7,159 bases of DNA from Thermaceae bacterium (GTDB taxonomy: Bacteria; Deinococcota; Deinococci; Deinococcales; Marinithermaceae). The translations under genes were made by a program, and so were the position numbers. Each line of letters begins with the position of its first letter. Within the stretch, counting starts at the first letter, position 1. The DNA is taken from contig JALUED010000158.1 in the NCBI GenBank assembly GCA_027053145.1, positions 1 through 7,159 on the forward strand, given 5' to 3'. The notes below the pieces were generated by a model that had not been told where the DNA came from, ran no database searches, and saw only the letters and a list, made by a program, of their open reading frames with translations. Positions 1 to 7,159 of this stretch are shown here, in pieces.

Positions 1-231
<231 letters not shown>

Positions 232-588
232 CTACCCCGGGTGCCGGCGGTAGCTGAAGGCGTCCTTGCGCCGGGCGCCGAAGGCCTCGGCGAGCCCAGC
301 GAGCACCTCGCCGGCGTCCGCCTCGCGGTAGAAGTAGAGGTCCAGGGTGGCGGAGGCGTCGTCCTCGGGCCAGGTGTGGATCATCACCGCCGCCACCGGG
401 CTGAGCGCGGCCGCCGAGAGCCCCTGGGGCTCGAACTTGTAGACCACGCTCCGGATCGTGGACTCCTCCGCCCCGAGCCGCTTCACCGCGTCCCGAAGCG
501 CCCGCTCCACGAGCGCCGCGTCCTCGAGGCGATCCACGTCGCAGCCGTAGATCTCCCCAACCCAACGTCCTCCCGATACCTTTGCCAC
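232..588 (-). CDS. S-adenosylmethionine decarboxylase-like protein lacking the pyruvoyl-forming serine
   Basis: A 118-residue protein with the fold signatures of bacterial class 1b AdoMet decarboxylase (SpeD/SpeH): GRWVGEIYGCD near the N-terminus, then KFEPQGLS, then IHTWPE. Genuine enzymes cleave themselves before a serine that becomes the pyruvoyl cofactor (Ser63 in Thermotoga maritima). Between the PxG(V/L)S and IHTWPE anchors the alignment with that enzyme, recalled from memory, is gapless. The cleavage-site Glu-Ser-His reads Val-Ala-Ala here. The active-site cysteine (FTCG) is replaced by Tyr (YFYR), while the processing histidine in IHTWPE is kept. It is therefore probably not a conventional decarboxylase. 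It precedes speE by 12 bases, so a polyamine role, perhaps prozyme-like, is inferred. An in-frame GTG at 619-621 would leave only 3 bases to ackA. I prefer the GTG at 586-588, which has TAGCAT 8 bases upstream and keeps the GRWVGEIY strand near the N-terminus as in the family. Confidence 0.8.
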   Translation of the reverse strand: MAKVSGGRWVGEIYGCDVDRLEDAALVERALRDAVKRLGAEESTIRSVVYKFEPQGLSAAALSPVAAVMIHTWPEDDASATLDLYFYREADAGEVLAGLAEAFGARRKDAFSYRRHPG

Positions 589-596
589 GAAAAGCC

Positions 597-602
597 ATGC
601 TA
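597..602 (-). promoter_or_regulatory. Probable -10 box (TAGCAT) of the speD-like/speE operon
   Basis: On the minus strand TAGCAT matches TANNNT and lies 8 bases before the GTG at 588, the pattern of near-leaderless Deinococcus-Thermus transcripts. I see no convincing -35 box. It shares a 36-base intergenic region with the ackA promoter. Confidence 0.35.
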
Positions 603-612
603 CCACCTGGGG

Positions 613-618
613 TAGGCT
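613..618 (+). promoter_or_regulatory. Probable -10 box (TAGGCT) of ackA
   Basis: TAGGCT sits 6 bases before the ackA ATG at 625, with no good Shine-Dalgarno sequence between them, consistent with a leaderless mRNA. No -35 box is evident at 16-19 bases; TTGCCA at 582-587 is too far away. The same hexamer occurs before the membrane-protein gene that starts at 5034. Confidence 0.4.
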
Positions 619-624
619 CACGGT

Positions 625-1758
625 ATGCGGGTTTTGGTCTTGAACGCCGGCTCCTCAAGCCTCAAGTTCGCCCTAACCGACGCATCCGAAGAGCGGCACC
701 TCCTCCGCGGCCGGGTGGAGCGGGTGGGCGAGGCAAAGAGCCTTTTGGTCCTCGGCAAGGAGGAAATCCCCGTCCGCGCCAAGGACCACCGCGCCGCCCT
801 CCAGGCGGTAATCGAGCACGCGGAGCTCGGCCCCATCGAAGCGGTGGGGCACCGGGTGGTCCACGGAGGCACGATCCGGGAAAGCCGACCGGTGGACGAC
901 GCGCTCCTCGAACGGATCCGGGCCCTCATCCCCTTGGCGCCGCTCCACAACCCGGCGAACCTCGCCGGCATCGAGGCGGCAAGAAAGCTTTTTCCGAACG
1001 TCCCTCAAGTTGCGGTCTTCGACACCGCCTTCCACCAGACCCTCCCCCCCGAGGCCGCCCGCTACGCCCTGCCCGCCGAGCTCGCCGAGGCCGGCTTTAG
1101 GCGCTACGGCTTTCATGGCATCTCCCACGCCTTCGTGAGCCGAAAGGCGGCCGCGCTCCTTGGGCGGCCGCTTGAAGACCTCCGCCTCGTCACCCTTCAC
1201 CTGGGCAACGGCGCGAGCGCCACCGCGGTCAAGGGCGGGAAAAGCGTCGCCACCTCGATGGGGTTTACGCCCCTGGAGGGCCTGATCATGGGCACCCGAC
1301 CGGGCGATCTGGACCCTGGCCTCGTGCTCGCGATCGCGAAGGAAATGGGGATCGAGGAAACCGAGCGGCTTTTGAACCGGGCCTCGGGGCTAAAGGGGCT
1401 TTCCGGCCTTTCCCACGACCTGCGCGACCTGCACGCCGCGGCCGCGCGCGGGCACGAGGGGGCGAGGCTCGCGCTCAGCGCCTACGTACGCCGGATCGTC
1501 TTCTACGTCGGCGGCTACGCCGCCCTCCTGGGCGGGATCGACGCCCTCGTCTTCACCGCCGGCGTGGGGGAGAACGACGCCTGGGTGCGGGCCGAGGTGG
1601 TGCGTGGCCTCGGCCACCTGGGCTTTCGCCTGGATGAAGCGAAGAACGCCGCCGGTGGTCCGGCGATCACCCGCGGGCAGCCGGTCGCGCTGGTCGTGCC
1701 CACCGACGAGGAGCTCGAGATCGCCCTCGAGACCCGCCGGGTGCTCACGGGGCGATGA
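625..1758 (+). CDS. ackA: Acetate kinase
   Basis: Cytoplasmic ASKHA-fold kinase that interconverts acetate plus ATP and acetyl phosphate plus ADP, normally acting with phosphotransacetylase; propionate is a common alternative substrate. The 377 residues are slightly short of the usual ~400 but hold all family motifs: LNAGSSSLKF at 6-15 (N7, S10, S12, K14), GHRVVHGG at 75-82 (R77), VFDTAFHQTLP with the catalytic Asp D133, RRYGFHGISH at 159-168 (H164), HLGNGAS at 192-198, TPLEGLIMGTRPGDLDP with R225, FTAGVGEN at 310-317, and the late Glu in PTDEE (E362). The start ATG places the first beta-strand directly at the N-terminus, as in the family. No pta gene is visible. The gene diverges from the speD-like gene, and its last 14 bases overlap the 3' end of the opposing ZIP transporter gene. 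Confidence 0.96.
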   Translation: MRVLVLNAGSSSLKFALTDASEERHLLRGRVERVGEAKSLLVLGKEEIPVRAKDHRAALQAVIEHAELGPIEAVGHRVVHGGTIRESRPVDDALLERIRALIPLAPLHNPANLAGIEAARKLFPNVPQVAVFDTAFHQTLPPEAARYALPAELAEAGFRRYGFHGISHAFVSRKAAALLGRPLEDLRLVTLHLGNGASATAVKGGKSVATSMGFTPLEGLIMGTRPGDLDPGLVLAIAKEMGIEETERLLNRASGLKGLSGLSHDLRDLHAAAARGHEGARLALSAYVRRIVFYVGGYAALLGGIDALVFTAGVGENDAWVRAEVVRGLGHLGFRLDEAKNAAGGPAITRGQPVALVVPTDEELEIALETRRVLTGR

Positions 1759-2476
1759 AGAGCTGAAAAGCAAGCATGCCCACGATCGCAAGCGTCACCG
1801 TCGAGGCCACGAGCTCGCTCGGGGTGTCCTCGAGGGCGTCGGTCAGGATCTCGGAGAAGACGAGCCAGATCATCGCCCCAGCAGCAAAGCCCAGGCCAAA
1901 GGGCAAGAAGGGCTTGAAGACCTCGACAAAAAGAAAGGCGGGCACCGCCATCAGGGGCTGAGGCAGGCTCGAAAACACGCTCCAACCGGCGGCCTTAACC
2001 CAGTGCACCCCCCGGGGTACCAAAACCAGGCTGATCGCAAGCCCTTCGGGGATGTTGTGCACCGCGATCGCAAGCGAGATGAAGGCGCCGAAGGCCTCGC
2101 CGGCGCCAAAGGAAACCCCCACCCCCACCCCCTCGGCGAAGGAGTGGGCGGTCATGACCAGAACGATCATCAGGGCCTTTTTGGCGTCCACCTTGGTCAT
2201 CTGGCCCCAGTTGATCCCGCCCCGAGACTCGATCCAGCGGTGGCTCAAAAGGATAAAAACGAGCCCGGCGACGATCCCCGCGAGGGTGCGGGAAGGCGAA
2301 AGCGGAAGTCCCTCGTAAATAAGAGAAAAGCTCGCCGCGAGCATCAGGCCGGCCGCCACCGCGTTGGCCATCCCCAGCCAACGCTTGGAAAACTTCCGGG
2401 CGAGCGCAAAGGGCACCGCGCCAAGCCCGGTGGCCAGCGCGGTCAGGAAAGCGTACAAAAAAACCTGAGCCGCCAC
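1745..2476 (-). CDS. ZIP-family divalent metal transporter (ZupT-like)
   Basis: A 243-residue inner-membrane protein with about eight hydrophobic segments, the ZIP topology and length (E. coli ZupT is similar). ZIP proteins import zinc, iron, manganese or related divalent cations into the cytoplasm. The metal-site helices are clear: HSFAEGVGVG at 111-120 (H111, S112, E115) and HNIPEGLA at 140-147 (H140, N141, P143, E144), with SEILTDA (E209) in a later helix. The cytosolic loop before the first metal helix lacks the His-rich cluster of many eukaryotic ZIPs. The start is a GTG at 2474-2476 with AGGGGG five bases upstream, overlapping the stop codon of the regulator gene. The two genes are 9 bases apart and surely co-transcribed. 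Its 3' end overlaps ackA by 14 bp. The metal cannot be told from the sequence. Confidence 0.92.
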   Translation of the reverse strand: MAAQVFLYAFLTALATGLGAVPFALARKFSKRWLGMANAVAAGLMLAASFSLIYEGLPLSPSRTLAGIVAGLVFILLSHRWIESRGGINWGQMTKVDAKKALMIVLVMTAHSFAEGVGVGVSFGAGEAFGAFISLAIAVHNIPEGLAISLVLVPRGVHWVKAAGWSVFSSLPQPLMAVPAFLFVEVFKPFLPFGLGFAAGAMIWLVFSEILTDALEDTPSELVASTVTLAIVGMLAFQLFIAP

Positions 2477-2485
2477 CGAGGCCCC

Positions 2486-2770
2486 CTAGAGCGCTTCCTC
2501 CAACGCGCCGAGGATCTCGATCACGGTCCGGCCCCGCGCGGTGAGGGTGTATTCCACCCGGGGCGGCACCTCGGGATAGGCGATCCGCTCGATCAGGCCC
2601 AGCTCGGTAAGCTCCTTCAACCGCTCGGAGAGCGTCCGGGGGCTCACCCGGGTGTTCCGCTCCAGGTGGGTAAACCGCGTGGGCCCCTCGGCCACCGCCC
2701 GGAGGATTTCCCATCCCGCTTCCCGGGAAACCGCTTTGAGCACGCTGCGGAAGGTGACGTCCCGGCGCAT
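2486..2770 (-). CDS. HxlR-family winged helix-turn-helix transcriptional regulator
   Basis: A compact 94-residue DNA-binding protein. It carries the HxlR pattern in order: a W-x-x-x-I-L helix (W20-EILRAVAEGP), the RFTHLER segment (33-38), the recognition region SPRTLSERLKELTELGLIERI (43-63), and the wing YPEVPPRVEYTLTARG (65-80). The usual N-terminal redox cysteine of HypR- and QorR-type members is absent; the protein has no Cys at all and one His (H35). A thiol-based or canonical metal-binding sensor is therefore unlikely in the monomer. The start is the ATG at 2768-2770. The frame stays open far upstream across the antisense strand of the mutase gene, but homology begins only here and a good promoter lies just upstream. 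It is followed 9 bases later by the ZIP gene and probably controls it and/or the divergent operon (inference). Confidence 0.88.
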   Translation of the reverse strand: MRRDVTFRSVLKAVSREAGWEILRAVAEGPTRFTHLERNTRVSPRTLSERLKELTELGLIERIAYPEVPPRVEYTLTARGRTVIEILGALEEAL

Positions 2771-2779
2771 ACCTGGCGA

Positions 2780-2809
2780 AGTATACGCTATGGCGGAGGA
2801 ATAGAGCAA
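2780..2809 (-). promoter_or_regulatory. Promoter of the hxlR-type regulator/ZIP operon
   Basis: Minus-strand TTGCTC (2804-2809), an 18-base spacer and TATACT (2780-2785), a good match to a housekeeping sigma promoter. The -10 ends 9 bases before the ATG, so the leader would be only a few bases long. It is divergent from the promoter of the 46-residue gene in the same 90-base intergenic region, where an autoregulatory operator could lie. Confidence 0.6.
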
Positions 2810-2848
2810 TCGCAGAAAAGCAAAGCTACTTTTGGGGCCGTAACCCGT

Positions 2849-2854
2849 TAGGAT
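2849..2854 (+). promoter_or_regulatory. Possible -10 box (TAGGAT) or Shine-Dalgarno site of the small gene at 2861
   Basis: TAGGAT lies 6 bases before the GTG at 2861. The overlapping AGGA (2850-2853) would also serve as a ribosome-binding site at a 7-base spacing. The two readings cannot be separated by eye. No -35 is apparent at the right distance. Confidence 0.35.
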
Positions 2855-2860
2855 AAAGCC

Positions 2861-3001
2861 GTGCGTGACGAGCCTAAACCCGACTGGCTCGACTTCCTCG
2901 CCCTGACCCTCGCCGCCTACGAGCTTGTGCTCCCGGCGCTTCTTTTCATGCTGCTCTTGGCTTTTGGGGCGGTCTTCTTGCTGAAACTCCTCGCGGGGTA
3001 G
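2861..3001 (+). CDS. Small single-span membrane protein (46 aa), function unknown
   Basis: A 46-residue frame from GTG to TAG that I do not recognise from any family. The N-terminus is acidic and polar (MRDEPKPDWLDF, with D3, E4, D8, D11). Residues ~19-44 form one long hydrophobic helix rich in Leu, Ala and Phe with a single late Lys (K42), so it should sit in the inner membrane as a single span. Support for its being real: it fills almost the whole gap between the divergent regulator promoter and the mutase gene, it has a TAGGAT box or AGGA site at the right distance, it stops 9 bases before the mutase ATG, and it is a coherent transmembrane sequence. It probably forms an operon with the mutase large subunit. 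Its role there is unknown. Confidence 0.62.
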   Translation: MRDEPKPDWLDFLALTLAAYELVLPALLFMLLLAFGAVFLLKLLAG

Positions 3002-3010
3002 GGATCCGGC

Positions 3011-4546
3011 ATGGAGGGGCTTTTCGAAACGCTTCCCGAGGACTACCGCAAGCGGCTGGGCCGGCCTGGGGAGTACCCCTTTACCCGAGGGATCTACCCC
3101 CGGATGTACCTTGAACGCCTCTGGACGATGCGCCAATACGCCGGCTTCGGCAGCGCCGAGGAAACCAACCGACGATTCCGCTATTTGCTCGCCCAGGGCC
3201 AAACCGGCCTTTCGGTGGCCTTTGACCTGCCCACCCAGCTCGGCCTCGACCCCGACCACCCGCTTTCGGTGGGTGAGGTGGGCCGGGTCGGGGTCTCGAT
3301 CGCTACCGTCGAGGACATGGAAGAGCTCTTCGCCGGCATTCCCCTTGACCAAGTGACCACCAGCATGACGATCAACGCGCCGGCGATGATGCTCCTCGCC
3401 ATGTACCTGCTCGTCGCCGAGCGGCGGGGCATCCCCTGGGAAAAGCTTGGCGGCACGGTGCAAAACGACATCCTGAAAGAGTACGTCGCCCGCGGCACCT
3501 ACATCTACCCGCCCAGGCCTTCGATGCGGCTCGTCACCGACCTTTTTGCGTTTTGCGCGGAGCGGGTCCCGCGCTGGAACACGATCTCGATCTCCGGCTA
3601 CCACATCCGCGAGGCCGGGTCCACCGCCGTCCAAGAGGTCGCCTTTACCCTGGCAAACGCCAAAGCCTACGTCCGCGCCGCCCTGGAGCGCGGACTTGCG
3701 CTCGACCGGTTCGCCCCCCGCCTCAGCTTTTTCTTCGCCGCCCACAACGACATCTTTGAGGAAGCCGCCAAGTTCCGGGCCGCGCGAAGGCTTTGGGCCC
3801 GAATCATGCGCGAGGAGTTCGGGGCGAAAAACCCCAAATCCTGGATGCTCCGCTTCCACACCCAAACGGCCGGCTCCACCCTCACCGCCCAGCAGCCCCT
3901 CAACAACATCGTCCGGGTCGCCTACCAGGCGCTCGCCGCTGTGCTCGGGGGTACCCAAAGCCTGCACACCAACGCCTACGACGAGGCCCTCGGCCTGCCC
4001 ACCGAGCAGAGCGCGCTGATCGCGCTAAGGACCCAGCAAATCCTGGCCTTTGAATCTGGGGTCACGCGGGCGATCGACCCCGCGGGCGGGTCCTTTTACC
4101 TTGAGCACCTGACCGACCGGATCGAGGCCGAGGCCGAGGCCCTGATCCAACAGATTGACGCGATGGGGGGCGCGGTCGCCGCGATCGAGGCGGGGTTCGT
4201 GCAGAAGGAGATCGAGGAATCCGCCTGGCGCTTCCAGCGGGAGGTGGAAGAGGGCAAGCGCGTCATCGTCGGCGTGAACCGCTTCACCGTCGCGGAGGAA
4301 ACCCCGGTTCCCGTCCAAAAGATCGACCCCGAGGTGGGCCGGCGGCGGGCCGAAGCGATCCGCCGCTACCGGGAACGCCGGGACCAAGCGGCGGTCAAAG
4401 CCGCCCTTTCCAAGCTCAAGGAAGCCGCGAAGGGCGACGCGAACCTTTTCCCCTTCGTCCTCGACGCCTTCCGCGCCCGCGCCACCCTGGGTGAGGTGGC
4501 GGGAGCGCTCCGAGAAGTTTTCGGCGAATACCAGCCCAGCTACTAG
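3011..4546 (+). CDS. Methylmalonyl-CoA mutase, catalytic large (alpha) subunit
   Basis: A 511-residue protein covering only the substrate-binding TIM-barrel half of adenosylcobalamin-dependent mutases. There is no C-terminal B12-binding domain (no DxHxxG motif), so a separate small subunit encoded elsewhere is needed. It interconverts (R)-methylmalonyl-CoA and succinyl-CoA, feeding propionyl-CoA carbon into the TCA cycle. Motifs: [16 protein letters not shown] at 41-56, [26 protein letters not shown] at 146-158, [22 protein letters not shown] at 193-203, [25 protein letters not shown] and [15 protein letters not shown]43, R161 and H198 fall at the spacing of Y89, R207 and H244 of the Propionibacterium enzyme. 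Tyr and Arg here mark methylmalonyl-CoA rather than isobutyryl-CoA specificity, where Phe and Gln are found. It follows the 46-residue gene by 9 bases and overlaps the opposing membrane-protein gene by 4 bp. Confidence 0.94.
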
Positions 4547-5034
4547 CGGCGCCTTAGCAAAAGGGCGTTCGTTAGAAAAACGAAGGTGAAAAGGAGCAAG
4601 ACCCACTTAAAGAAGGTCAGGTAACCGGCGAGCACGGCGAGCGCCGGGCGCACCCGCCCGAGCTCGGCAAGCAAAAGGAGGTTTTCGCCCAAGTCGGCGA
4701 GCGCCGCCGCGAGCGGTACCCCAGCGTAGGCGGGCGAACGGTAGAAGTGGTAGACCCAACCGGAAAGGGCAAGTCCGTAGACCGCGGCAAAGCCCAGGTC
4801 AAAACGCAGGAATGCCCCGTACAGCGCCCGGCCCCGCTCCCCTAGCGCCCCCAAGTACCCGGCGAGCCGCTCGGGCACGTAACCCCAAAACCAAAGGTCG
4901 GGCGGCGGTCCGGCGAGGGCGAGGATCGGCGGCATGAGGGCGAAAAGCAACCCCAAGAAGAGCAAAAGGGAAAGCGCCCCCACCCCGTAGCGGACCAGCG
5001 GGTGGGCGAGCACCTCAAAAAAGCGAGCTCCCAC
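4543..5034 (-). CDS. Uncharacterised integral membrane protein (163 aa)
   Basis: Not assigned to a family with confidence. The protein has about four hydrophobic helices: residues ~14-42, ~78-97, ~104-124 and ~131-160, with an RRR C-terminus. The loop after helix 1 is proline-rich and aromatic ([15 protein letters not shown]). Acidic residues lie in or beside helices: D79 in the [11 protein letters not shown] segment, and D114, E117 and N118 in [12 protein letters not shown]. Such intramembrane charged pairs are usually functional, but I can name no role. The chosen start is the GTG at 5032-5034, with TAGGCT 7 bases upstream; a second in-frame GTG seven codons later is an alternative. Its stop TAG and the mutase stop TAG share one CTAG. 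It diverges from the NTF2-like gene across only 23 bases. Confidence 0.75.
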
Positions 5035-5041
5035 GTACCCG

Positions 5042-5047
5042 AGCCTA
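5042..5047 (-). promoter_or_regulatory. Probable -10 box (TAGGCT) of the 163-aa membrane protein gene
   Basis: Minus-strand TAGGCT lies 7 bases before the GTG at 5034, with no Shine-Dalgarno sequence in between. It overlaps the opposing TACAAT box by two bases. Confidence 0.4.
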
Positions 5048-5051
5048 CAAT
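5046..5051 (+). promoter_or_regulatory. Probable -10 box (TACAAT) of the NTF2-like gene
   Basis: TACAAT is one mismatch from TATAAT and ends 6 bases before the ATG at 5058. A transcript from here would start at or beside the start codon. GAAGG between them is too close to the ATG for normal Shine-Dalgarno use. I see no clear -35. Confidence 0.5.
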
Positions 5052-5057
5052 GAAGGC

Positions 5058-5438
5058 ATGGAGCAGGAAGTCTGGGCGACCCTGCACCGCCACCTCTCGG
5101 CGATCTACGCTGGCGACTGGGCGATCTACGACGAGACCACGAGCGACGACGTGGTGGTCTACGAATGGTTTGTGACCCCGCACCGCCTCGAGGGGAAAAG
5201 CTTCCACGCCTTTATGCTCGAGCACGACTGGGCGGGCACCGGCGAGGACTGGCGCTACGACCTCTTGGACCCCCGGCTCGACCTTTTCGGGAACGTGGCG
5301 GTGGCAAGCTACACCCTCTTGCTCACCGTCGCGAAGGAAGACGGCATCGAGCACCGCACGGTGAACGAAACTCGAGTGCTCGTCAAGTTTCCCGAGGGCT
5401 GGAAGGTGGTCCACGTCCACAAAAGCCCAGGCCGCTAG
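5058..5438 (+). CDS. NTF2/SnoaL-fold protein, CaMKII-association-domain-like
   Basis: A 126-residue soluble protein with the alpha+beta cone pattern of the NTF2-like superfamily: an N-terminal helix (~2-20, ending in YAGDWAIYDE), a mid helix (~47-57, GKSFHAFMLEHDW), then long beta-strands. The run G-x-x-FHxF-x-x-E, LLDPRLDLFGNVAVASYTLL (69-88) and NETRVLVKFPEGWKVVHVHKS (103-123) resembles the CaMKII association-domain/DUF4440 branch. These proteins usually form oligomers, and the fold serves enzymes, binding proteins and scaffolds, so no reaction can be assigned. The final His pair (H119, H121) and conserved acidic residues line the usual pocket. It is led by its own TACAAT box and followed by a short hairpin before fumC, so it may be monocistronic or read through into fumC. 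Confidence 0.78.
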   Translation: MEQEVWATLHRHLSAIYAGDWAIYDETTSDDVVVYEWFVTPHRLEGKSFHAFMLEHDWAGTGEDWRYDLLDPRLDLFGNVAVASYTLLLTVAKEDGIEHRTVNETRVLVKFPEGWKVVHVHKSPGR

Positions 5439-5447
5439 GGACAAGCC

Positions 5448-5463
5448 GCCCCGAAAACGGGGC
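5448..5463 (+). terminator. Short GC hairpin between the NTF2-like gene and fumC
   Basis: A perfect 6-bp stem, GCCCCG with CGGGGC, around an AAAA loop, 9 bases after the NTF2-like stop codon. No T-run follows; the fumC -10 candidate begins two bases later. It could be a weak terminator or 3'-end stabiliser, but it is too short to be certain. Confidence 0.35.
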
Positions 5464-5464
5464 C

Positions 5465-5470
5465 TAAAAT
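5465..5470 (+). promoter_or_regulatory. Probable -10 box (TAAAAT) of fumC
   Basis: TAAAAT matches TANNNT and differs from TATAAT at one base. It lies 19 bases before the fumC ATG, leaving room for a short leader that contains the Shine-Dalgarno sequence. No clear -35 is visible. Confidence 0.45.
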
Positions 5471-5477
5471 GCCTGGC

Positions 5478-5485
5478 GGAGGTGG
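5478..5485 (+). promoter_or_regulatory. Strong Shine-Dalgarno sequence of fumC
   Basis: GGAGGTGG lies just before the ATG at 5490. It decides the start: an upstream in-frame ATG at 5469 would translate through this site into a glycine-rich tail (MPGGGGT) absent from the family. Confidence 0.8.
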
Positions 5486-5489
5486 AACG

Positions 5490-6884
5490 ATGAAGTACCG
5501 CATCGAGCGGGACTCGCTGGGCGAGCTCAAAGTGCCCGCCGACGCCTACTACGGCGCCCAGACCCAGCGGGCGGTGGAGAACTTCCCCATCAGCGGGCTC
5601 CGCTTCCCCCGCACCTTTATCAAGGCGCTCGGAGCGATCAAGCACGCCGCCGCCGAGACCAACCTCGAACTCGGCCTCCTTGATGAGGAACGGGCCCGCG
5701 CCATCCTTCAGGCCGCCGAGGAGGTCATCGAGGGCAAACTCGACGACCAATTCGTGGTCGACATCTTCCAAACCGGCTCCGGCACCTCCACCAACATGAA
5801 CGCCAACGAAGTGATCGCCGGCCGGGCGAACGAGATCCTGACCGGGCGCCGGGGCGGCAAGGAACCGGTCCACCCCAACGACCACGTCAACAAGGGCCAG
5901 TCCTCAAACGACACCATCCCCACCGCGATCCACGTTTCGGCGGCGCTTGAGCTTCACGAGGTGCTCCTTCCCGCCCTCCGCGAGCTCAGGGATGCCCTCG
6001 CCGAAAAGGCCGAAGAGTGGGACGGCATCGTCAAGATCGGCCGCACCCACCTGATGGACGCGACCCCGATCCGGCTTGGGCAGGAGGCAAGCGGCTGGGC
6101 CCGGCAGGTGGAGCTTTCCATCGAGCGGCTGGAGTCGGTGCTCCCAAGGCTCTATGAGCTCGCCCAGGGCGGCACCGCGGTGGGCACCGGCCTCAACACC
6201 CACCCCGACTTCGGCAAGCTCGTGGCGGAAAAGCTCTCTAAGCGCTTTGGGCTCCCCTTCCGCGAGGCCGCGAACCACTTCGAGGCCCAGCACTCGAAAG
6301 ACGCCGCCACCGAGCTTGCCGGCCAGCTTGCCACCGTGGCCACAAGCCTCATGAAGATCGCCAACGACATCCGCTGGTTGAACTCGGGGCCCCGGGCAGG
6401 CCTTGCCGAGATCCAGCTCCCCGCGGTTCAGCCCGGCTCCTCGATCATGCCGGGTAAGGTCAACCCGGTGATGAACGAGGCGCTGATGATGGTCTGTGCC
6501 CAGGTGATCGGGAACGCCACCGCGGTGCAGGTCGCGAACACCCACGGCAACCTCGACCTGAACGTGATGATGCCGGTGATCGCGAAGAACCTGCTGGAGT
6601 CGATCCGCTGGCTCGGCAACGCCACCCGGGTCTTCACCGAAAAGGCCGTCCGCGGCATGAAGGCCAACAAGGAAAAGGCCGAGGGCTACGTCGAGTGGTC
6701 GCTTGCGATGGTGACGAGCCTGGTGCCGGTGATCGGCTACGACAAGGCCGCCGAACTCGCGAAACGCGCGATGAAGGAGAATAAGACCATCCGCCAGCTC
6801 CTCCTTGAGGAAAAGATCCTCCCGGAGGAGGAGATCAACAAGCTCCTCGATCCCTGGCGGATGACTGAACCCGGTATTCCCTAG
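5490..6884 (+). CDS. fumC: Fumarate hydratase class II (fumarase C)
   Basis: A 464-residue iron-independent fumarase, the usual length, catalysing reversible hydration of fumarate to L-malate in the TCA cycle as a cytoplasmic homotetramer. Motifs: FQTGSGTSTNMNANEVIA at 93-110, HPNDHVNKGQSSND at 128-141, GRTHLMDATPIRLGQEASGW at 184-203 (H187 matches the E. coli His188 position), and the fumarase/aspartase signature GSSIMPGKVN at 316-325. In that signature S317 is the catalytic-loop serine, with K323 and N325. Aspartate ammonia-lyase is the nearest alternative, but SGW after LGQE and GKVN rather than AKVN in the signature favour fumarase. The ATG is fixed by the strong Shine-Dalgarno sequence at 5478-5485. 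A 10-bp hairpin terminator follows the stop by 18 bases, so fumC ends its transcription unit here. Confidence 0.95.
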   Translation: MKYRIERDSLGELKVPADAYYGAQTQRAVENFPISGLRFPRTFIKALGAIKHAAAETNLELGLLDEERARAILQAAEEVIEGKLDDQFVVDIFQTGSGTSTNMNANEVIAGRANEILTGRRGGKEPVHPNDHVNKGQSSNDTIPTAIHVSAALELHEVLLPALRELRDALAEKAEEWDGIVKIGRTHLMDATPIRLGQEASGWARQVELSIERLESVLPRLYELAQGGTAVGTGLNTHPDFGKLVAEKLSKRFGLPFREAANHFEAQHSKDAATELAGQLATVATSLMKIANDIRWLNSGPRAGLAEIQLPAVQPGSSIMPGKVNPVMNEALMMVCAQVIGNATAVQVANTHGNLDLNVMMPVIAKNLLESIRWLGNATRVFTEKAVRGMKANKEKAEGYVEWSLAMVTSLVPVIGYDKAAELAKRAMKENKTIRQLLLEEKILPEEEINKLLDPWRMTEPGIP

Positions 6885-6902
6885 CGGCTTTCATGGATTT
6901 AT

Positions 6903-6936
6903 GGGCCGGGGCACATTCGGGAGCGCGCCCCGGCCC
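6903..6936 (+). terminator. Hairpin terminator after fumC
   Basis: A perfect 10-bp GC stem (GGGCCGGGGC at 6903-6912 with GCCCCGGCCC at 6927-6936) around a 14-base loop, followed by TTATATTG. The U-tract is poor, but the very stable stem 18 bases after the fumC stop makes it a convincing terminator. Confidence 0.75.
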
Positions 6937-6937
6937 T

Positions 6938-6943
6938 TATATT
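6938..6943 (+). promoter_or_regulatory. Possible -10 box (TATATT) of the superoxide dismutase gene
   Basis: TATATT fits TANNNT and abuts the 3' side of the fumC terminator. TTCGGG at 6916-6921, in the terminator loop, is a poor -35 at a 16-base spacing. The leader to the ATG is 23 bases and contains the strong Shine-Dalgarno sequence GGAGGTG at 6951-6957. Confidence 0.45.
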
Positions 6944-6966
6944 GAGTGCGGGAGGTGAAGGAAGTT

Positions 6967-7159
6967 ATGCCGTATCCGTTCAAACTACCCGAACTGCCCT
7001 ACGCCTACGACGCCCTCGAGCCCTACATCGATGCCCGCACCATGGAGATCCACCACACCAAGCACCACGGGGGCTACGTCAACAACCTGAACGCCGCGCT
7101 CGAAAAGTACGATTACCTTTTCGAGCGCGGCGTTCAGGTTGTTGACGTAGCCCCCGTGG
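6967..7159 (+). CDS. sodA: Superoxide dismutase (Mn/Fe type), N-terminal fragment with a corrupted end
   Basis: Cytoplasmic enzyme that dismutates superoxide to oxygen and hydrogen peroxide. The visible start [20 protein letters not shown] is nearly that of the Thermus thermophilus Mn-SOD. It continues through [28 protein letters not shown]29 is the first metal ligand (His26 in E. coli numbering), and H33 and Y37 are the conserved gateway residues. The start is the ATG at 6967 with GGAGGTG upstream. From about codon 50 the bases are the exact reverse complement of codons 33-47, giving a non-homologous tail ([13 protein letters not shown]). The frame stays open to the edge by chance. Only residues 1 to about 50 should be taken as real. 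The other three metal ligands lie outside the window, so Mn cannot be told from Fe directly; Mn is inferred from the Thermus resemblance. Confidence 0.88.
7065..7159. repeat. Perfect 43-bp inverted repeat with 9-base loop at the right edge
   Basis: Bases 7117-7159 are the exact reverse complement of 7065-7107, separated by TACGATTAC (7108-7116). There is no mismatch in 43 bp, and the second arm runs to the last base given. The left arm is ordinary, conserved sod coding sequence, so the right arm is most probably a fold-back chimera from library preparation or assembly rather than a genomic palindrome. Confidence 0.95.

Follow-up and report, generated by a model that had tools for sequence, protein, structure and literature searches.

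A serine-less AdoMet decarboxylase homologue encoded before speE in Thermaceae, likely acting with a second, serine-bearing SpeD

The stretch of DNA analysed here (the window) comprises 7,159 nucleotides from a Thermaceae bacterium (contig JALUED010000158.1 of assembly GCA_027053145.1, positions 1 to 7,159) and encodes on its minus strand, at positions 232..588 and directly before speE, a homologue of S-adenosylmethionine (AdoMet, SAM) decarboxylase without the serine from which the pyruvoyl group is made. We refer to this protein as SpeD1 and to a second, serine-bearing SpeD, encoded away from it, as SpeD2. SpeD1 is likely a dead paralogue that acts together with a live SpeD, and the residues kept by the two proteins suggest, as the best explanation and one that we hold with somewhat better than even confidence, that they pair into an asymmetric AdoMet decarboxylase whose active site they share. 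In such a dimer, with one working active site, SpeD2 would supply the self-cleaving chain that gives the pyruvoyl group (Glu62, Ser63) as well as the catalytic Cys83, and SpeD1, placed opposite SpeD2 across a sheet-sheet interface, would supply Phe49, Ser55, His68 and Glu72, residues that would help processing and bind the substrate at its ribose. The product would be passed to SpeE, encoded beside SpeD1, and the pair would correspond, in unfused form, to the eukaryotic class 2 AdoMet decarboxylase (AdoMetDC). From residue patterns, co-occurrence, synteny, selection and predicted monomer folds in our own data, and from papers on the requirement for SpeD1 in Thermus thermophilus and on the residues contributed by both halves of the eukaryotic sandwich, we infer the complex, the lending of residues across its interface and the loss of self-sufficiency.

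By sequence and fold, the product of 232..588 is a class 1b AdoMetDC homologue. It matches the Pfam family AdoMet_dc (PF02675) with an E-value of 2.5e-22 and 79.7 bits against a cut-off of 25, and its predicted fold is confident (mean predicted local distance difference test score, pLDDT, of 87.8), with class 1b chains as the best structural matches. The NCBIfam model TIGR03330, an equivalog model for working AdoMet decarboxylases, scores it at 57.4 bits, under the equivalog cut-off of 75.65. The frame, with its stop codon at 232-234, is open up to a GTG at 621 (129 amino acids), and several relatives in the alignment start just before GGRWV, matching the GTG at 588 (118 amino acids); the resulting range of 118-129 amino acids is that of a half-size protein. 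The first-pass annotation of the window, made from the sequence alone, had set the start at 588, had called the gene a SAM decarboxylase homologue directly before speE and had seen its scaffold in register with class 1b, and all three calls stand: the gap to speE is 12 base pairs (bp), and the alignment to Thermotoga maritima SpeD runs without a gap from Ser55 to His68.

Residues are numbered after that protein (TM0655, PDB 1tlu/1vr7), with 1tlu as the alignment reference. Because the Ser55-His68 alignment is gapless, the Glu62-Ser63 cleavage site is placed on Val-Ala in the window (391..396, on the minus strand like all residues given here), so that Ser63, the pyruvoyl precursor, is replaced by Ala, and the catalytic Cys83 is replaced by Tyr (328..330). 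The protein keeps the equivalents of Phe49 (433..435), Ser55 (415..417), His68 (376..378) and Glu72 (364..366). For Ser55 and Phe49 we presume the roles given to them here. Those of Ser63, His68 and Cys83 are stated in PMC10407285, with His68 as both a processing and a catalytic residue. Judged from these residues, SpeD1 cannot form a pyruvoyl group by the known route; this consequence, together with the loss of the self-processing serine and the active-site cysteine, had been claimed from the window alone and is borne out. We also considered the serine of the upstream LSP motif as an alternative cleavage site and rejected it, since the alignment places it at residue 60 instead of 63 and since it is missing in the homologues P0046 and P0047.

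SpeD1 is strongly conserved and under purifying selection. The ratio of non-synonymous to synonymous substitution rates (dN/dS) was between 0 and 0.28 in all 13 chosen pairs of SpeD1 genes, and Phe49, Ser55, His68 and Glu72 are kept in each of 47 distinct sequences. Given these figures, the intact frame and the confidently predicted fold, a decaying pseudogene was rejected, in agreement with the first-pass annotation.

A search with PF02675 of the 21 genomes behind our first loci gave two matches in 20 of them and one match in the other. Across 111 Deinococcota genomes, SpeD1 was found in 57, SpeD2 in 58 and both in 56, and each of these 56 pair genomes holds exactly two proteins found by PF02675, of which SpeD2 alone has an intact cleavage site (about ten places with weak matches, for example in G033, G035, G036, G075, G083, G091-G093 and G095, were left out). 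Of the 57 SpeD1 genomes, all of them genomes of relatives, 56 thus have at another place the second, serine-bearing speD for which the first-pass annotation had proposed to look. For the window's own genome we assume a SpeD2 by analogy with these; the nearest relative (locus L001 of genome G001, 92.7% identical in DNA sequence across the first 2.1 kb) encodes one.

The two proteins look complementary in what they keep. Among the 56 pairs, SpeD1 has Phe49, Ser55, His68 and Glu72 in every case, together with Val at position 62 (56/56), Ala (53) or Gly (3) at position 63 and Tyr (55) or Phe (1) at position 83. SpeD2 has Glu62, Ser63 and Cys83 in every case, and Ser55 in only one (Thr in 50, Ala in 5) and Glu72 in only five. 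The sharpest case is the pair of G025, where positions 49, 55, 68 and 72 are His, Thr, Gln and Lys in SpeD2 against Phe, Ser, His and Glu in SpeD1. The invariance of His68, a processing residue, in a protein with nothing to process is the argument that weighs most. In the eukaryotic sandwich, residues come from each half, with the pyruvoyl serine on strand 4 near the cysteine and the histidine and the ribose-binding glutamate on strand 12; the C-terminal half no longer cleaves, and prokaryotic chains hold the union of both residue sets (PMC1282579). That strands 4 and 12 belong to different halves is our own reading of that paper. On this comparison, SpeD1 looks like the keeper of the C-terminal set and SpeD2 like the keeper of the N-terminal set. 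Fitting the predicted models to either half of human AdoMetDC did not discriminate between the two proteins, both of which matched mostly C-terminal ranges of the human chains. We take the human residue numbers to be Ser229, His243, Glu247 and Cys82. Phe7, Phe223, Glu67 and Ser68 of the human enzyme appear in PMC5377238.

Whether Thermaceae and some Deinococcales make decarboxylated SAM (dcSAM) by an obligate SpeD1/SpeD2 heterodimer, in which neither protein would be self-sufficient and each would be without what the other keeps, is to our judgement evenly balanced. If so, bacteria would have an independent version of the class 2 asymmetry, one without fusion, and T. thermophilus SpeD1 would be a pseudoenzyme subunit. 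In T. thermophilus HB27, SpeD1 is TTC0473, SpeD2 is TTC1093 and SpeE is TTC0472 (PMC4021367). From its adjacency to the speE gene TTC0472, we infer that TTC0473 is the serine-less SpeD and the same gene as that of the window, since in both T. parvatiensis (L020) and G071 (L083) it is the serine-less gene that stands 11 bp upstream of speE. A speD1 deletion strain is reported to be unable to make long and branched polyamines and to need added polyamines for growth above 75 C (PMC6418473), and the polyamine defect is repeated in PMC9957541. We found no report of the missing serine of Thermus SpeD1 in the literature searched, the coverage of which left out subscription papers.

In a tree of 72 rows, to be read with its few columns, its meeting long branches and its unsettled bootstrap in mind, SpeD1 forms one clade (support 100/99), which is grouped weakly with ordinary SpeD (52/60) and stands next to P0232 at 95/78. 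SpeD2 falls within a distant HTFP-type family (100/100), where it is not a single clade. Outside the HTFP family, Glu72 is constant throughout the 37 rows; within it, there are nine changes, four of them on the 19 SpeD2 rows, so that Glu72 appears labile in SpeD2-type proteins generally. A SpeD2-type protein of G024 (L125, 1544-2002) has Val for Cys83 with Ser63 kept, like P0156 and P0164.

Several observations weigh against a split active site. SpeD2 retains His68 in 55 of the 56 pairs and, as said, Glu72 in five; its Phe49 column is unsure, with an insertion there; and Thr55 is not confined to SpeD2 among class 1b proteins (Aquifex 2iii and three alpha rows have it too), so that the change of Ser55 alone proves little. 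Six of the 16 HTFP rows outside the pairs are without Glu72 (Ala in two, His, Ser, Cys and Lys in one each), in genomes that may or may not encode a SpeD1-type partner. Among genomes whose completeness is not stated, SpeD2 occurs without SpeD1 in G038 (Ala55, Lys72) and G024 (Ser55, Glu72, Val83), and SpeD1 without SpeD2 in G018. Furthermore, the co-occurrence count is inflated by shared ancestry, and deleting speD1 may have had a polar effect on speE.

The retention of His68 and, in five cases, Glu72 by SpeD2, its presence beside SpeD1 in 56 of 57 genomes and the precedent of the trypanosome prozyme (PMC5201418) would all fit an allosteric activator, with SpeD2 complete on its own and SpeD1 raising only its rate or stability on binding, lending no residues. 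This would leave unexplained the constancy of Phe49, Ser55, His68 and Glu72 across SpeD1, and we consider it rather unlikely. The first-pass annotation had proposed such a prozyme-like partner of a genuine SpeD encoded elsewhere; its logic has held up, a serine-bearing SpeD being present, and its detail has not, the residue pattern suggesting half an active site and not allostery.

SpeD1 lies directly upstream of speE on the same strand in the window and in all 57 SpeD1 genomes, with gaps between -4 and 266 bp (the match to speE in G018 starts only at residue 162), and a gene pair found identically in all 57 genomes argues for a pairing beyond chance. The two are separate, unfused genes in these 57 genomes. 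In the window, speE (1..219, minus strand) is represented by its first 73 amino acids and runs off the end, with matches to PF17284 (6e-11), NF002010 (63 bits) and TIGR00417 (51.9 bits), the latter two below their full-length cut-offs as scored on this fragment. No same-strand speE (E up to 1e-10) was found at any SpeD2 locus in the approximately 1.3-1.9 kb examined downstream, and at L071 SpeD2 and speE are about 10 kb apart on opposite strands. G109, which has no SpeD1, shows an undivided state: a single SpeD with Ser63, Cys83 and Glu72 stands about 30 bp before speE, and there is also a second, divergent PF02675 match.

SpeD1 might also be a subunit or docking partner of SpeE with no action on SpeD2, for which the N-terminal domain of human spermine synthase, an AdoMetDC-like fold associated with an aminopropyltransferase, offers a likeness. 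That domain is fused to its transferase, whereas SpeD1 is separate, and aminopropyltransferases of T. thermophilus and Oceanithermus expressed as single genes in Escherichia coli yield spermidine plus spermine or thermospermine, with dcSAM supplied by the host's own SpeD (PMC11107197, Table 1). Since SpeE works there as a single gene and without SpeD1, an essential SpeE subunit is disfavoured, and the active-site residues kept in SpeD1 would remain unexplained; we regard a role as partner of SpeE as unlikely.

The retention of Phe49 and Glu72, expected to bind AdoMet, in a protein for which catalysis of its own is impossible by the known route could instead point to a sensor of SAM, dcSAM or polyamines that regulates the pathway. 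However, His68, a processing and catalytic residue (PMC10407285), is also invariant, and since SpeD1 is unable to self-process, a pure sensor fits less well. Moreover, no Pfam domain besides AdoMet_dc was seen in the window's SpeD1 at E-values up to 1, so that no output domain is visible. A sensor thus seems very unlikely to us, and the polyamine- or SAM-binding regulator that the first-pass annotation had offered as its second option is the poorer fit.

The lability of Glu72 across the whole SpeD2-type family could also reflect a change of substrate, with SpeD2 turned arginine or ornithine decarboxylase and dcSAM coming from another enzyme. Decarboxylases of arginine and ornithine that derive from SpeD are widespread (PMC10407285), and an operon of Microcystis phage MaAM05 (L151, 2468-5246) combines in a row speH_2 (a canonical SpeD), speH_1 (a SpeD2-type protein), speE and speB. 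Against this, speA is over the cut-off in 50 of the 56 pair genomes and PvlArgDC is present in five of the other six, the exception being G002 (1.4 Mb) with neither, so that 55 of 56 have another arginine decarboxylase and SpeD2 is not needed as one. Furthermore, each pair genome has only two PF02675 proteins, with the cleavage site intact in SpeD2. We give such a change of substrate very little credence. A search for class 2 AdoMetDC (PF01536) gave no match in the 111 Deinococcota genomes, and no control genome matched either. PF01276 was not found in the 10 genomes searched for it, and PF02784 matched nine of these 10, with matches not sorted by function. The close relatives of the window (G001-G005, G037 and G038) have no speA over the cut-off, and in six of these seven, G002 being the exception, a pyruvoyl-dependent arginine decarboxylase gene (PF01862) stands beside an arginase-family gene, as seen at L155-L158 (G005, G004, G001 and G038).

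A shared active site built from SpeD1 and SpeD2 would differ from each of the closest known systems. Class 1b AdoMetDC (SpeD/SpeH, TM0655) has the Glu62, Ser63 and Cys83 that SpeD1 is without, and SpeD1 scores under the TIGR03330 cut-off. The trypanosomatid prozyme is likewise a non-cleaving paralogue kept alongside an active one, but it is of the double-length eukaryotic type and allosteric (PMC5201418), whereas SpeD1 is a half-size class 1b protein that keeps complementary residues. The C-terminal half of class 2 is, like SpeD1, a half-sandwich without a cleavage site beside a pyruvoyl-forming half (PMC1282579), but SpeD1 is encoded on its own, beside speE and away from the cleaving half. 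A SpeD fusion of Victivallis vadensis also combines one cleaving and one dead unit, has demonstrated AdoMetDC activity and restores spermidine in E. coli BL21speD, but it is a single chain whose dead unit belongs to the ornithine decarboxylase type, and SpeD1 is unfused (PMC10407285). SpeD of Thermus phage phiYS40, together with E. coli speE, restored spermidine in E. coli lacking speD (PMC9992855); it keeps the serine and the cysteine and has, by eye, Asp at 72. As a self-sufficient yardstick, it is consistent with a split site in the SpeD1/SpeD2 pair without being decisive.

AdoMetDC and its prozyme, a well-studied case of a dead paralogue switching on an active relative, were described in 2016 as confined to trypanosomatids (PMC5201418). 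The tractable model T. thermophilus would add an independent example from bacteria, which, if the active site is indeed shared, would work by a different mechanism. Such an example would also bear on the origin of class 2, with a division of labour between two genes first and fusion later. It would alter, too, the reading of SpeD1 and SpeD2 in metabolic models of T. thermophilus, in which both are listed among the polyamine genes (PMC4021367).

Among the remaining PF02675 proteins, L129 and L131-L134 hold divergent ones of a second kind (Deinococcota), all five without Cys83, with Glu-Ala at 62-63 in L131-L134 and Glu-Ser kept in L129; at L129, L131 and L133 the adjoining gene resembles glycerol kinase by eye. 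Elsewhere in the window, an acetate kinase gene (625..1758, plus strand; PF00871, 3.3e-126) is divergent from SpeD1, 36 bp from its start at 588, and is outside the SpeD1 system. A predicted protein of 163 amino acids (4543-5034, minus strand) has no Pfam match at 1e-3, and at positions 5058-5438 there is, in bacterial surroundings, a small protein with a match to PF08332 (1.1e-37), the family of the CaMKII association domain.
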